From contig JAAYKH010000054.1 of the NCBI GenBank assembly GCA_012522475.1, positions 1 through 43,167 of the forward strand: DNA of 43,167 nucleotides. The letters run 5' to 3'. This document shows positions 9,845 to 43,152 of this stretch, in pieces. The notes under the pieces are model-generated. The model did not search any database, was not told where the DNA came from, and was given only the letters and a program-made list of their open reading frames with translations. Both the position numbers and the translations under genes were made by a program. Source of the DNA: Chloroflexota bacterium. Its GTDB lineage: Bacteria; Chloroflexota; Anaerolineae; Anaerolineales; Anaerolineaceae. Numbering within the stretch: the first letter of the stretch is position 1; each line of letters starts with the position of its first letter.

Positions 9845-11605
9845 TTATAACGGCCACAACCAGGGCACCATTAATATCGCAATAATGTAAATTAAGACGG
9901 TCAGCAGAGCGCCAACCTTGACGAAATCAAAGAAGCGATAATTACCAGGGCCATAAACCATCAGGCACGCAGGTTCCAGCGGCGTAATGAAAGAATTGCT
10001 GGCGCCGATGGCAATCATCACCGCAAAGGTACGGGGATTGAGGTTCAGGTAAAAGGCAGTTTGCATCGCAATTGGGGTGACAATGACCGCAGCGGCCTGG
10101 TTTGACATGGGTTGGGTTAAAATCAAGGACAGGAAGAAAAAGGCGGAAAGCAGTAAAGTAGGAGGGTATCCCCCAACCAGGGCGACGATCTTATCCGCCA
10201 GCAGGGCTGCCAGGCCGGTCACTTCCATGGCCCGACCCAGTGCCAGCATACAAGCAATTAACAGCCAGGCGCTCCAATTCACCTGGCGGTAAGCCTCTTC
10301 AGGGGTGATACAGCGGGTGATAAATGCAATTAATGCCCCCAGCATAACCCCCACATGCAGAGAAAAGACGTTGAGCGATACCAGCAAAATCACGCTGCCA
10401 AAAATGGCCAGCGCCAGGGGTGCTTTAGAGGTTTCGGGCATGACATCTAACGCACCGGTGACGATTCGGAAACTGATGTTCTTCCCCAACCCGCGGATTG
10501 TATCAGGATTGCCCTGGAGCAGTAATTGATCGCCAACTTTAAATCGGGTCATGCTGATGCGGCGGCGAATGGCTTCTCCCTTGCGATTGATGCCCAGCAC
10601 CTGCAGGCCATAGCGGTCTCTGAAATTCACTCCGCGCAACGTGCGCCCAATTAAGGGTGAGCCAGGCAACAGGATCACTTCAGCCATAGATAGATTCTTG
10701 GTCAACTCTGAATCAAATTCTCCGGCAAATTCGACCAGGTTCTTTTCTCGCAGAATGACCAGGTTGTTTTTATTGCCTTCAATCAATAAACGATCACCGG
10801 GTTCAAGCAAGGTATTGGCCCGGGGTTCAACAGGCAGCCCGGATTCTTTTAATATGCGCAGGATATACAGGTCGTATTCCTGGCCTAACCCGATTTCGCT
10901 TAGAGATTTGCCCGCCCACGGTGAGGAAGGGGTGACTTTGAATTCGGATAAATAAGCCAGGATTTCGGCTTGTGGGTCGGTGCTTTCGGTTTCACGAATT
11001 GGGATTAAGTGTTGACCGATAAAGTACATGTATAGCAATCCGATTATCAGGATTGGCACGCCTACTGCGGTAAGCTCGAACATACCCAAAGGCGCCAGCC
11101 CGTATTGAGTTAGCTGACCGCTGACGACGAGGTTGGTGGAGGTGGCCACCAGCGTGACGGAACTGGCCAGGATCGTGGCAAAAGCCATAGGCATCAGCAA
11201 TTTCGATGGATTAACCTTTAACCGTCTTGCCAGGCCGATCGTCATCGGGGTGTAAAAGGCAGCTGCAGCCGTGTTAGAAATAAACGAGCTAAACAAACCT
11301 GCTGTACCGGTAATAATCCAATATAAATGGGTTTTGCTATCCCCAACCGACTGAAAGATCTTTCGAGAGAGAATTTGGACAATGCCGGTGCGCACCAGGG
11401 CAGCGGTCAAAATTAAAACCCCCAGGATCATAATCGATGTATCGCTGCCAAAACCTTCAAAGGCGGTGTCGGCTGGCAGGATACTGGTCAGGATCAACGC
11501 CATCATCAACCCCAGGGCAATCACCTCGGCTGGCAGAGTTTCTATTGAAAACAGGACCAGTGCCGCCAGGATGAGAACGATTAACAAAACCATGGAGAGA
11601 GTCAT
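9845..11605 (-). CDS. SLC13/DASS-family transporter with two RCK_C domains
   Basis: Inner-membrane anion permease of 586 aa. Two membrane halves enclose a soluble middle: N-terminal helices (residues 1-190) include SSFISNTAAAAFYTPMTIGL, and C-terminal helices (about 385-586) include TQPMSNQAAAVIVTPIAMQT, the two paired SNT/SNQ-type substrate and Na+ motifs of the family. Between them lie two TrkA-C/RCK_C repeats (about 205-285 and 295-370; e.g. LLIEGNKNNL and LLLQGNPDTI), which may sense a ligand. Substrates in the family are sulfate or di- and tricarboxylates; which one is not readable here. Confidence 0.88.
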   Translation of the reverse strand: MTLSMVLLIVLILAALVLFSIETLPAEVIALGLMMALILTSILPADTAFEGFGSDTSIMILGVLILTAALVRTGIVQILSRKIFQSVGDSKTHLYWIITGTAGLFSSFISNTAAAAFYTPMTIGLARRLKVNPSKLLMPMAFATILASSVTLVATSTNLVVSGQLTQYGLAPLGMFELTAVGVPILIIGLLYMYFIGQHLIPIRETESTDPQAEILAYLSEFKVTPSSPWAGKSLSEIGLGQEYDLYILRILKESGLPVEPRANTLLEPGDRLLIEGNKNNLVILREKNLVEFAGEFDSELTKNLSMAEVILLPGSPLIGRTLRGVNFRDRYGLQVLGINRKGEAIRRRISMTRFKVGDQLLLQGNPDTIRGLGKNISFRIVTGALDVMPETSKAPLALAIFGSVILLVSLNVFSLHVGVMLGALIAFITRCITPEEAYRQVNWSAWLLIACMLALGRAMEVTGLAALLADKIVALVGGYPPTLLLSAFFFLSLILTQPMSNQAAAVIVTPIAMQTAFYLNLNPRTFAVMIAIGASNSFITPLEPACLMVYGPGNYRFFDFVKVGALLTVLIYIIAILMVPWLWPL

Positions 11606-26044: not shown

Positions 26045-26406
26045 AAACAGCTCCCATGCCCAATGATAAAAACCGGCAAGACCAATATTTAATGAGGCTC
26101 TTCAGGTGATCAACACTGTGAAAAATCCGGCTTGTCCCCCTGGCTGAACAACCTGATTTTCTAATCCATCATTACGCCATGATTACAGGTGATTAAACAT
26201 CTTTACTCGGTCATCGTTTATGCTTCTGATGCGCGTGCCAGCCCATAAAAAAGATGAGAGCGGGCCGGCTTCTTAAAGACTAATTCTATCATGAAAGTAA
26301 AACTGCTGATTGGATTGAAAGAATTTATACCCCTGAAAACAACGTTGATCAAACGCCTAATACCATCCCCTAAAATTGTATTTTATGAGTTTTCGACATC
26401 GACCAA
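26045..26406. other. Intergenic region upstream of mgtC
   Basis: About 360 bp with no credible gene. On the minus strand a TAGAAT near 26285 could be a -10 box for mgtC. The conserved M-box blocks were looked for on both strands and are absent. Confidence 0.4.
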
Positions 26407-26832
26407 TCAAGAAAATTTACTCTCTAGCAGTAGTTTTAGCCCCACAAAATCCGTATGGTCCTCAATGCGCAACCATAGCCAGCGCCCCTGGGGCAGTTCG
26501 GAAGGTTGGTTTAATAAAGCTCGGATGCGGGTGTTGAAATACTGGATCTTCGCTTGGGCGGCCTCCTCGCCCTTCAGGGTAAGGGTGAGAAAAGCAGTAA
26601 ACCCGCCCTGCCCTGGAAACAGAATGCATAGCCGCTGCAACCCTTGGCGATAATCCAGGCCCCAGCCGCGTTGGGCGTTGTAATAGGTTAATTCAGCCTC
26701 AAAATCCGGATAGTGTGCCTGCAAATAACGGTTGACGGCCACCCAGACCGGGAAGACTTCCCTGCCGATGATCTGGCGGATCAGCTCAGGTCGGGGGGGC
26801 GCATCTCGATTTAATAAGCGTTCATCCTGCAT
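26407..26832 (-). CDS. DUF3788 family protein
   Basis: 141-aa cytosolic protein. The opening ERLLNRDAPPRPELIRQIIG, the centre YYNAQRGWGLDYR, LCILFPGQGGFTAFLTL and the end GRWLWLRIEDHTDF match DUF3788 in order and over its whole length. The fold resembles small YdhG/DUF1801-like proteins; function is unknown. It is transcribed away from mgtC's upstream region and appears to be monocistronic. Confidence 0.8.
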   Translation of the reverse strand: MQDERLLNRDAPPRPELIRQIIGREVFPVWVAVNRYLQAHYPDFEAELTYYNAQRGWGLDYRQGLQRLCILFPGQGGFTAFLTLTLKGEEAAQAKIQYFNTRIRALLNQPSELPQGRWLWLRIEDHTDFVGLKLLLESKFS

Positions 26833-34026: not shown

Positions 34027-34452
34027 ATGTATCAACAAATCATCATCGTTGGGTATTTAGGCAGTGATCCAGACATGCGCTTCACGCCTAATGGCCAGGC
34101 CGTCACCAGCTTTTCAGTTGCCACCTCTAACAAATATACCAGTAATACCGGGCAGCGAGTTGATGAGACCACCTGGTTCCGCGTTTCTGTTTGGGGGTCT
34201 CAGGCGGAATCTTGTAATCAATACCTGGCCAAGGGCCGACCGGTCATGGTCATTGGTCGATTGCGACCGGACCCGCAGACTGGCAACCCCAGGATTTTCA
34301 ACCGCCAGGATGGAACACCAGCCGCATCCTTTGAAATCACAGCACAGCAGGTCAAATTCCTGCCCGGCGGCAGCCGAGGCGCTGGTGGTTACGAGGATGA
34401 TTTCGGTAACGAGCAAGGAGCCCCTGCTGAAGACGACGTCATTCCCTTCTAA
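34027..34452 (+). CDS. ssb: Single-stranded DNA-binding protein
   Basis: 141-aa OB-fold protein that coats single-stranded DNA in replication and repair. IIIVGYLGSDPDMRFTPNGQ, then VTSFSVATSNKY and WFRVSVWGSQAE form the OB fold; a Gly-rich linker leads to the acidic tail EDDVIPF, the tip that recruits partner proteins. It is not beside rpsF/rpsR but heads an operon with a DUF3467 gene 11 bp later and a translin gene. Confidence 0.96.
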   Translation: MYQQIIIVGYLGSDPDMRFTPNGQAVTSFSVATSNKYTSNTGQRVDETTWFRVSVWGSQAESCNQYLAKGRPVMVIGRLRPDPQTGNPRIFNRQDGTPAASFEITAQQVKFLPGGSRGAGGYEDDFGNEQGAPAEDDVIPF

Positions 34453-37098: not shown

Positions 37099-37950
37099 AT
37101 GATGACTGATAATCGAACCGTCAGGCTTTCATCCATTGCCGGCACCTGGTACCCGGACGACCCCAAACGACTTAGAAGTGACCTGGCAGGCTATATTGAT
37201 ACCGCTGAAAACCCCCCATTGCCTGGCCAGGTAGTCGGGCTGGTGGTGCCTCATGCCGGCTATGTTTATTCGGGCGCGATAGCAGGCCATGCCTTCAAAA
37301 CCGTGCAGGGGGACAGCTTTGATTGTGTCTGCGTACTCTCTCCCATGCACCAGTATTACTCGCAACCCTTGCTGACCAGTGCCCACCGCGCCTATCGCAC
37401 GCCGTTGGGTGACATTCCTTTAGCAGATGATGAGATCGAACAGATCAATGCCAGATTGATGGAGAAAATCAGCATCGGGCTAACCCCCATCGCCAATGAC
37501 TGTGAGCATTCATTGGAGATCGAACTGCCCTTTTTGCAGGTAGCCCTATCAGGCGACTTCACCCTGATCCCAATTATGCTGCGCGACCAATCTCGTCAGG
37601 TGGCGAAAGCATTGGGCGAGGTTTTAGCTGAAGTCTTCGTAGACAAAATGTGTTTAATGGTCGCCAGCAGCGACCTTTCGCATTTCCACACGCAACACCA
37701 GGCGGAGCGGCTGGATTTAGTCGTGCTGAATACGCTGGAGGCGTTCTCGCCCGAAGGCTTGTTTGACCTCAAAGACCAGGGGCAGGGTCAGGCCTGCGGC
37801 CTGGCGCCCATGGCTGCGGTGCTGTGGGCTGCGGAAAAGCTGGGCGCCAATGCAGCAACTTTGCTAAAATACGCGACCTCAGCCGCCACGACCGGAGATA
37901 CCTCATCCGTGGTTGGGTATGGCGCTGCGGCCATTACCCGTCCAGATTGA
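37099..37950 (+). CDS. amrB: MEMO1-like protein (AmmeMemoRadiSam system protein B)
   Basis: 283-aa protein of the MEMO/class III extradiol dioxygenase-like fold. SSIAGTWYPDDPKRLRSDL and GLVVPHAGYVYSGAIAGHAF are the family start; CEHSLEIELPFLQV and ASSDLSHFHT supply the His and Asp positions equivalent to the metal pocket. In many genomes it occurs with an AMMECR1 domain protein and a radical SAM enzyme; neither is in this window. Function is unknown. A lipoprotein gene begins 28 bp after its stop. Confidence 0.88.
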   Translation: MMTDNRTVRLSSIAGTWYPDDPKRLRSDLAGYIDTAENPPLPGQVVGLVVPHAGYVYSGAIAGHAFKTVQGDSFDCVCVLSPMHQYYSQPLLTSAHRAYRTPLGDIPLADDEIEQINARLMEKISIGLTPIANDCEHSLEIELPFLQVALSGDFTLIPIMLRDQSRQVAKALGEVLAEVFVDKMCLMVASSDLSHFHTQHQAERLDLVVLNTLEAFSPEGLFDLKDQGQGQACGLAPMAAVLWAAEKLGANAATLLKYATSAATTGDTSSVVGYGAAAITRPD

Positions 37951-39047: not shown

Positions 39048-41603
39048 CTATGAATTATGCGCTTTTAACGCGTCCAGCCAAAGCGCAGCGATCTTACGGT
39101 TACGGGTTTCCAGCGCTGCCATCAATTTGACTAGCTTGTCCTTAACCGCATCTACCGGCCAGCCTTTCCGGTCAATCACTGCTTCCACAGCTTGCCATGT
39201 TTTTTCGGTGAAACTGGTCTGAGAGAGGATATCCACCAGGCGCCACTGACTATAAGCCGCGTTAATTTCATTGATGGTTAACGCCTCCAGCCGGGCCAAA
39301 GTTGCATCAATGATCACCCGGCCTTGAAGTGGGTCTTTGCTCTCAACATACACCCGGTTAATCGGCTCTGTACCCGAGGCGCGCACCCGCAATTGGTAAC
39401 GATCATCGCCCTCGGCATCCACCAATTGCATCTCAGCCACTTCGTAGCGGATCCCGCCCAGGTAGGCAATGTCCATCCCGGCGATTTTACCAGCTGGGTT
39501 CAGGTTAAGATAATGATCAATAAAAGCTTCTTTGGCTTCCAAGGGCGCATCCACATCCACGCGCCCGGTATGCGAAGTTGCGTCATCCGGTGAACAGCCG
39601 AAAATTTCCCATAAGCCCGGCATGCGTACTGTATCGTCCCAGATCTCTGCAATCGTGGTCAGCGGGTTTTCTGGTCGCGTCCCGAAATAAGCCAGCATGT
39701 CCATAATCAACAGATTGGCCCAGGGCCCGTCCTTATCGGTCACGTGGCCGCGGGTGGTCAGCCCCGATGATTCCTCACCGCCGATCAGGATGCGATCCCG
39801 CCAATTTGATGGCAGCGGGTTTTCTGACTGATATGCCCGGTCTACGCGCCGAATCTCCTCGATGTATTTGATTCCCACGGGCACCAGGAAGGCATTTTTT
39901 AAAATCCGATCCTCCCGACCCCCGATGACGATCTTGTAAAAAGGGTGGCTCACATACCCCGGAAGCGCATCCTTTGCTGGTTTGTTCGCATCATTGCCCC
40001 GGATCATCCCCGCCAGAACTTCAATTAGGGGCGAGCCCGTCTGGGTGGCAATCACCCGGCCGGTCAGGCCGCGTTCCACACCCAGGTAGCGCACCAACAT
40101 GGTTAAAATCTGGTTTGGGCGAAAATACACGCCACCCTTATCCACCACCCCAAAGCGGTCGGCGTCCGTATCCATCCCCAGACCCAGGTGGGCGCCCGTC
40201 TCTGTCACTTTCGCTTTGAGCGGGTTGATAAAGGGTTCCTCGGGGTTGGCGTAATCCAGGCCGGGCAGCTCCGGGTCGCGCTGGGCGTGGATGACCGTAT
40301 ACCGCGCGCCGGCTTCACCCAGCAGGCGGGTTAAATAACCCCGGCCAGAGCCGTGAAACTCATCGATCACCACCAACTTATCGTTGAAGAATTCCCTAAT
40401 ACGGTCAAAATCAATCGGGATGCGGGCATTACCCTTACCATTCGCCTTAATCCAGGTCACGTAATCATCCAGCGGATCGAAGCCGCGCAGTTTGCCCTGC
40501 CCGCGGCCCACGTCCAGGCTCGTGATGCGCCCGTCGAAATCGGTGAGCTGCAATTCATTGATGCGGAAAGCAATGAAATCCGTCTGGTTGGTGGGCGCTG
40601 GGTAGCCCAGGCGCGGGTTGAACTTGATTCCCTGCCATTCCGGTGGATTGTGGCTGGCTGTGCAGATTAATTATCCGGCCACCTCTTCGGGCGGCAGGTG
40701 CTCTGTCAGATAATACACCAGGGCGGGTGTGGGTGTATCGCGGTTGGCGAAATCCACCTGGAAACCGTTCGCCAAACAGACCTGAGCGGCCCATTCCGCG
40801 ACCCTGTCGGCATTTCTGCGGGTATCGTAGCCGATAACAATCCTGCGACCGGACAGGTTCTCCCGACCGACAAAATCGGGCACGTCTAGATCGTTAAGGT
40901 AATCGCACACGGCCTGGACCACCTGTTTGGCCCGCCGCTCGGTGAAATCTACACCCCAACGGGCACGCACCCCGGAGGTGCCAAAACGCAGGTACTTCCG
41001 GTCATAGATTGTGCGCAGCAAGCCCGGGCTGTGTGCATCCCCAATCAGCAGGGCTTCCTGGGTCCGCAGCCGGAACATGATCAGGCGTTCGTAGATATTG
41101 CCAATTTGGATCACCCGGAAGGGCATCCAACGGTCGTGATCCTTCTCAAAATCCATGCTATCGAGCAAGGGCAGGATCTCGTGATCGAGCGCTTCTCGAA
41201 GTGAGTTGAAAACCGGGGCTGCCAAATAATCCTTTGCCAGGCGAAGTGCCTTTTGACGCAAGCGCCCGGTCAGAGAGAGATAGACATCATCGATCAACGC
41301 CCGACGCGCTGACCCCGCATCGTCTTTGGGGAGATATTGCTCCAGGCGGTACTGCGTCCCCGTGGCGGCTAGGGTCAACAGGATACTGAAAACCCGCGAT
41401 GAATCGTTTGGTGAGCGGGCGATCAATTCAGGATCTGAGAGTACTTGTTGTGACAAGACGTCTAAAAATTGATCCATCGCGCGTACAGAGGCCTGCCAAT
41501 CGGCTTCGCTTTCAGCGCTTATCAGCAGGCGATTGATACAGTTAAAGACCATGCCCAACTGCGGGATTGTGATCTGATCGTAGGGAATATTCAATGGGTC
41601 CAT
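39048..41603 (-). pseudogene. Phosphoglucomutase/phosphomannomutase, interrupted by an in-frame TAA
   Basis: A single frame of 851 codons before its final stop, broken once by TAA at 40671-40673. The 5' part (40671-41603) has an unassigned helical N-terminus of about 200 residues, then LRFGTSGVRARWG and the sugar domain. The 3' part reads TASHNPPEW with the phospho-serine codon at 40653-40655, the metal loop DTDADRFG, the sugar loop GGEESSG and the phosphate loop RASGTEP. All catalytic motifs survive; only the stop, six codons before the serine, breaks the gene. A TTG at 40551-40553 begins an open 501-codon frame but would leave out the serine. It may be a true pseudogene or an assembly error. 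Confidence 0.85.
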
Positions 41604-41676
41604 AGCAGGCTCCTATCAACGAATTGCAAGGTTTTTTAAGAACGACTGTTAACAATCAATCTCATTCCAGGTGTCA

Positions 41677-43152
41677 TCACCCTAACCGGGGGATCAACCC
41701 ACCGCGAGTGACGTTTAATACTTCCAACCGACTGCCCGGTGGCGTATTTGTTCCCGCCTGAACAGCCTCAATCAAGGTATAGGCTTTTTCGGCCAGTTCG
41801 CGTTCCGAATGTCGCGTGTCTGCTTCGAGCATCAGGCGCACCATAGATTCCGTGCCCGAATAGCGTAAACTCAGGCGGGTGAGTCCGGGCAGCTCATCTC
41901 TAAGTGCGTTGCGCAGGGCTACAACCTCTTCAAGCTGCTCCAGATCGATTTTTTCGGCTACAACGGCGGAGGCGATCACCTGGGGATACTTATGAATGCT
42001 TTCCGCCAGCTCACTCAGGGTTGCCCGTCCGCTGGTCAGAAAAGCTCGCAGGAGGTAAATAGCCGAGCGCAACCCATCACCGGTGGTATGCGATTCGTCC
42101 ATCAGGACAATATGCCCGGATTGTTCACCACCCAGACCAATCTGTTTTTTCTGATTGTTTTGTTTGAACAGCTCGTACAGTTCACCAATGACGAATTTAT
42201 CACCCACCGGGGTTTCAATAAAGTTAATCTTCCGTTCGGCAAAATAGTTTACCAGCGCGCCATTGCGCATGGCGGTACTGACCACAACATCGTCCAATAA
42301 CCTGCCCCGGGTGCGCAGGTAATCGCCCAAAATAGCCAGGATATGGTCCCCGTCCACTAGGTGCCCAGCCTCATCCACGAAGATCACCCGGTCCGCATCA
42401 CCGTCAAAGACCACAGCGAAATTCGCCCGATGCCGTTTAATCTGTGCAAAAAGGGCTTCCGGATACTGACGTGCGTACTCCGATCCGCAGTCTGCATTGA
42501 TGTTGTTACCGTTGGGCGAGGCATGCAGGGCCACAACCTCTGCGCCCAGGCGAGAAAATACCTTGGGGGCGTACCAAGAAGCCGCCCCATTGGCACAATC
42601 TAAAACCAATCTGACCCCACTCAGGTTCAGGTCCTGACGTTCACCCACCAGGTCCTCAACATAGCGTTCACGCAGGTTGGTGCCGTCAACCTGCCCCTTG
42701 AGCTGGTCCGCCCGCAGGTTGTTCAAGTTCATTGGCTGGTCCAGCAAAGCTTCAATTTCCAGTTCAAGTCCTGCATTCAGTTTGAGGGCCTGCCGGTTAA
42801 AAAACTTGATCCCGTTCTCGTTCACCGGGTTGTGAGAAGCCGAAATGACCACTCCGGCATCCGCTTTCGTCTGACCAACCAAAAAGGCCACCCCAGGCGT
42901 GGGGATCACCCCCAAATCGACTGCCGAGGCACCGCTGGCCAGCAAGCCTGTGGTCAACGCGTTTTGCAAACGCTCTCCCGATTGGCGGGTATCGCGCCCA
43001 ATAACAAAAGTGGGATGCGTAACCTGGCGCGCCAGCACCGTCCCGGCTGCATAACCCAGACGTGTAAGGAATTCGGGCACCAGCGGGTCGCGACCGACGT
43101 GTCCGCGGATGCCATCAGTGCCGAAATACTTCCTTTGCTGTGTTGCTGTCAT
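41677..43152 (-). CDS. glmM: Phosphoglucosamine mutase
   Basis: Converts glucosamine-6-phosphate to glucosamine-1-phosphate for UDP-GlcNAc and peptidoglycan synthesis. 491 aa. RKYFGTDGIRGHVG, VISASHNPVNENGIKFF (phospho-Ser106), FDGDADRVIF, GGEQSGHIV and RYSGTESMVRLM are the GlmM signatures. It is longer than the usual ~450 aa, mainly at the C-terminus. A CGGAGA SD precedes the ATG close to the window edge. It is followed after 73 bp by the interrupted phosphohexomutase on the same strand. Confidence 0.92.
   Translation of the reverse strand: MTATQQRKYFGTDGIRGHVGRDPLVPEFLTRLGYAAGTVLARQVTHPTFVIGRDTRQSGERLQNALTTGLLASGASAVDLGVIPTPGVAFLVGQTKADAGVVISASHNPVNENGIKFFNRQALKLNAGLELEIEALLDQPMNLNNLRADQLKGQVDGTNLRERYVEDLVGERQDLNLSGVRLVLDCANGAASWYAPKVFSRLGAEVVALHASPNGNNINADCGSEYARQYPEALFAQIKRHRANFAVVFDGDADRVIFVDEAGHLVDGDHILAILGDYLRTRGRLLDDVVVSTAMRNGALVNYFAERKINFIETPVGDKFVIGELYELFKQNNQKKQIGLGGEQSGHIVLMDESHTTGDGLRSAIYLLRAFLTSGRATLSELAESIHKYPQVIASAVVAEKIDLEQLEEVVALRNALRDELPGLTRLSLRYSGTESMVRLMLEADTRHSERELAEKAYTLIEAVQAGTNTPPGSRLEVLNVTRGGLIPRLG

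Follow-up and report, generated by a model that had tools for sequence, protein, structure and literature searches.

A phosphohexomutase gene is interrupted by an in-frame TAA six codons ahead of its catalytic serine, and we consider it very likely that a single-base change in an ordinary, constrained gene is responsible, as either a nonsense mutation of very recent origin or an erroneous base in the consensus sequence. Between these two we see about equal odds, each a little short of even. The change would be one substitution that turned a leucine codon, probably TTA, into TAA, and the host gene an otherwise constrained phosphohexomutase of an Anaerolineaceae bacterium from the genus that holds Brevefilum. 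The window, by which we mean the whole stretch of DNA analysed (43,167 nucleotides), is one 43-kb contig of a genome of 2.26 Mb in 89 contigs that is 98.6% complete. The assembly is presumably of metagenomic origin, like those of the named relatives listed.

The interrupted gene

The minus strand from 41603 to 39048 translates into 852 codons, two of which are stops: the terminal codon and a TAA at codon 311. In TASHNPP the serine is encoded by codon 317, and the codons right after the TAA read L-I-C-T-A-S-H-N-P-P. This agrees in coordinates and content with the initial annotation, which had described a TAA six codons before the catalytic serine in a frame of 851 codons with its other motifs intact; DTDADR, GGEESSG and RASGTEP were all found. 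The features of the region are as follows.

39048–41603, minus strand: phosphohexomutase frame, 851 codons plus terminal stop, with one internal TAA (from translation, Pfam and relatives)
40674–41603, minus strand: upstream fragment of 310 aa, with an N-terminal extension (about 200 residues, no Pfam match) and the first part of PGM_PMM domain I, without the catalytic serine
40671–40673, minus strand: in-frame TAA, codon 311; leucine (38) or isoleucine (2) in 40 other distinct copies
39051–40670, minus strand: downstream 540 codons, with TASHNPP, the remainder of domain I, domains II and III and a weak domain IV match
40641–40661, minus strand: TASHNPP, codons 315–321 (sequence motif), which we take to be the active-site loop
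40155–40172, minus strand: DTDADR, codon 478 (sequence motif), presumably the metal-binding loop
39762–39782, minus strand: GGEESSG, codon 608 (sequence motif), presumably the sugar-binding loop
39363–39383, minus strand: RASGTEP, codon 741 (sequence motif), taken here as the phosphate-binding loop
41677–43152, minus strand: intact phosphohexomutase of 491 aa with all four PGM_PMM domains, adjoining the interrupted gene upstream, also in relatives

PGM_PMM_I matched on both sides of the TAA, with 51 and 28.4 bits (Pfam cut-off 22.5), and the downstream piece also matched PGM_PMM_II (61.1 bits, cut-off 29.3) and PGM_PMM_III (30.2 bits, cut-off 20.7). PGM_PMM_IV reached 20.6 bits there against a cut-off of 23.1, with the RASGTEP loop present. 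With domains I–III above cut-off across the two pieces and all four loops in place, the gene resembles the alpha-D-phosphohexomutase superfamily (Pfam PGM_PMM I–IV); it differs in its N-terminal extension, which is common to relatives of similar length. Among solved relatives, 1tuo and 1wqa scored best by sequence against the downstream piece. The exact substrate is not settled, because the two pieces, scanned separately, each scored far under every cut-off of the NCBIfam equivalogs listed.

The TAA separates the catalytic serine loop from the start of domain I. Within 70 codons after it, the in-frame ATG, GTG or TTG codons are the TTG at 40553, which comes first, and the GTG at 40511, both of them behind the serine. 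Since the stop precedes the serine and the next start codon follows it, the active site is complete in neither fragment. If the stop is real, translation would be expected to end after 310 residues with the catalytic serine missing, and a restart at the nearest ATG, GTG or TTG would fall behind that serine.

The site among homologues

The site was compared in fetched copies with the motif TASHNP[PE]EWQG, with identical proteins removed. Paralogues of other families, reading ...GGVMITASHNPP (L018, L019 and L029), were excluded by this motif, as were the remaining loci without it; L064, which has the motif TPSHNPP, is absent from the alignment, and no stop occurs in the two pieces of it that align. 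This left 40 other distinct copies open through the site, in frames of 735–903 codons. Stop-to-stop frames spanned 848–903 codons in 38 of these relatives and 735 and 764 codons in two with frame breaks elsewhere; L047 and L061, shortened in this way, were included in the 40. In L047 (1–2399; UBA5365) the reading passes through frames 3-2-3 in the N-terminal part of the same gene, while in L061 (4110–6508; UBA7927) it changes from frame 3 to 2 near the C-terminus.

At the position of the TAA, 38 of the 40 copies encode leucine and two isoleucine (L069 and L071), and none has a stop. Seven further distinct partial copies (L016/L074, L017/L075, L059, L067, L068, L076 and L078/L079), which were excluded from the dN/dS and column tests, all have leucine. 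The search for homologues sharing the TAA, proposed as a check in the initial annotation, thus found none in either set. Of the other 15 genomes in the genus, 14 carry the gene, with no stop in the matched domain, so the interrupted frame is not a chance open frame. Two of these genomes have short frames (G001 and G008; 353 and 460 aa) that run into contig ends, and G003 had no match of this type.

The 12 copies from the genus read VAG-L-[LIM]-[IV]-C-TASHNPP, with LLIC in nine of them, and four codons lie between VAG and TASHNPP both in the window and in its relatives. Because these copies keep L-[LIM]-[IV]-C in frame, the LIC of the window is the inherited reading. Over the five codons starting at the stop, the window and L008 agree in 13 of 15 bases, and no gap is needed to align them. 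TTA stands at the site in L008, L062, L063 and the partial copy L079, and CTG, three steps from TAA, in the closest four copies (L003–L006). From these sequences we infer, rather than observe, that the ancestral codon was probably TTA.

Constraint and the age of the stop

The gene aligned end to end with its relatives in a single frame, with the TAA as the sole internal stop; relaxed constraint and further lesions were looked for in the whole gene against relatives, and none were found. After the TAA, dN/dS (NG86) between the window and its four closest relatives was 0.057, 0.100, 0.082 and 0.093, compared with 0.069 (L003–L004) and 0.096 (L003–L005) in intact pairs; these ratios are rough, with synonymous divergence near or above 1. 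Of 450 columns that do not vary among the other 12 members of the genus, five carry a private change in the window, where the others have 0 to 16; after the TAA it is four of 323. A rough Poisson bound, which rests on assumed branch lengths of 0.4 and 0.6 and an assumed 2.3 nonsynonymous sites per codon, allows at most about 2–3% of the branch to have been unconstrained. As the gene shows no decay, the stop is either very young or not real, and the dN/dS values and private changes bear out the earlier view that a very recent mutation or a local error is to be preferred to an old pseudogene.

Wrong base or real mutation

The possibility that the TAA is a wrong consensus base and the organism's gene intact, to which we give slightly less than an even chance, is consistent with the lack of decay in the rest of the gene, and the assemblies behind L047 and L061 show frame breaks in other parts of this gene. 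Assembly and sequencing errors are known to create false internal stops, more of them at low coverage (PMC11017572). Against an error of this kind, the window genes that were compared include no second one recognised as broken. From 24610 on, 17 of the 18 other ORFs are matched over nearly their full length in the relative G005, and ORF 26291–26653 has no match there. ORF 30597–31466 matches in two pieces because the compared stretches meet at that point, and ORF 37913–38971 matches only from residue 42 on. Left of 24.6 kb there are no G005 matches but one weak one, and integrity rests on Pfam coverage and, in part, on comparison with ORFs of G010, G005 and G004.

For a wider comparison on false stops, 0.39 Mb of the window's genome was sampled in 20 stretches, and 0.8 Mb of the relative G010 in 40. 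ORFs of G010, of three G005 loci and of one G004 locus served as queries against the window and the genome stretches. They matched 31 targets, 27 in the window and four elsewhere, so that the result bears almost entirely on the window and hardly at all on the rest of the genome; at least one of the 27 window targets is an antisense ORF. Five alignments contained a stop. One of these was the TAA in question, the only one attributed to a broken gene. The others lay, by position, at the natural end of ORF 9845–11605, upstream of a start at 37099, in an ORF antisense to 34027–34452 and, in the fifth alignment, close to a gap in L141. The comparison listed no frame breaks.

Alternative explanations

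Read-through or recoding of the TAA, which would give a full-length enzyme, had been raised as a third option. We keep it as a very improbable one: the constraint that persists after the TAA speaks for it, but a stop occurs in none of the 40 distinct and seven partial copies, TAA terminates 13 of the 31 listed ORFs of the window, and the stop stands in the context TAAT, described in PMC5289835 as the most efficient bacterial termination signal. A suppressor tRNA was sought and rejected as a candidate, since none of the 43 tRNAs found, an incomplete set without Ile-GAT and Ala-TGC, reads a stop codon. It is less probable still that the TAA is real, fixed in the species and decoded as an amino acid, with synthesis of the mutase limited by read-through before the active-site loop.

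As a separate observation on the assembly of the window's genome (G000), Ile-GAT and Ala-TGC are absent among its 43 tRNAs. Genes for these two tRNAs are often located in rRNA operons, and the rRNA operons may be missing from this assembly.

The initial annotation had suggested that a compensating pair of 1-base indels, at most about 13 bases apart, could have produced the stop, with VAG-IINL-TASHNPP as the true reading, an explanation that we regard as scarcely credible. IINL is indeed present in the next frame (ATA ATT AAT CTG), and two distant copies, L062 and L063, have LINL ahead of TASHNPP. However, both encode LINL in four codons without a shift of frame and at unchanged spacing, and the genus copies have L[LIM][IV]C where the window has LIC in frame; the likeness of IINL is coincidental, and the frame that holds the TAA is the inherited one. 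Two indels would be required in place of one substitution, and they are not needed, because one substitution in a TTA codon suffices and the frame of the relatives is kept. The pair is rejected on the frame kept in homologues. An old pseudogene, to which an in-frame stop ahead of the active site might point, is likewise rejected as highly improbable on the resemblance of dN/dS after the TAA to that of intact copies and on the few private changes, with the narrow bound that these set on time without constraint.

The reading that we favour, a single-base change that is either very young or an artefact of the consensus, places the gene beside single-nonsense pseudogenes and spurious internal stops in bacterial assemblies, which it resembles in having one internal stop in an otherwise intact and constrained gene. 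The case in the window is special only by the place of the stop, six codons ahead of the catalytic serine. The interrupted gene is of an ordinary, known kind, and nothing points to a new mechanism.

Genomic context and other phosphohexomutases

Across 39048–43152, the gene of the 850-aa type lies directly beside that of the 491-aa phosphohexomutase, an arrangement found in the window and in relatives. The genome encodes two other phosphohexomutases above the PF02878 cut-off, the adjacent 491-aa protein and one on contig 79. Of the other 15 genus genomes, 13 encode the same three mutase types, with two in G008 and one in G003 by PF02878. A second intact copy of the interrupted gene was not found in the genome, where the next match shares 28% identity across 205 residues.

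Contigs labelled Desulfosarcina, Ignavibacterium and Bacillota (L059, L063 and L064) also encode the 850-aa gene type, which among the matches listed is otherwise in records labelled Chloroflexota or Anaerolineae. L059 is 82% identical over the 366 downstream residues present in it. We infer that these three contigs are probably mis-binned or mislabelled.

The case has little import beyond this record. It offers a small worked example of how indel pairs, nonsense mutations and decay can be told apart, decided here by the frame that the relatives keep. Annotators would call the gene broken or split it in two, whereas the evidence suggests that it functioned until very recently or still does. 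If the TAA is real, it should abolish the enzyme, and the bacterium would be left with the adjacent mutase and the third one elsewhere in its genome.
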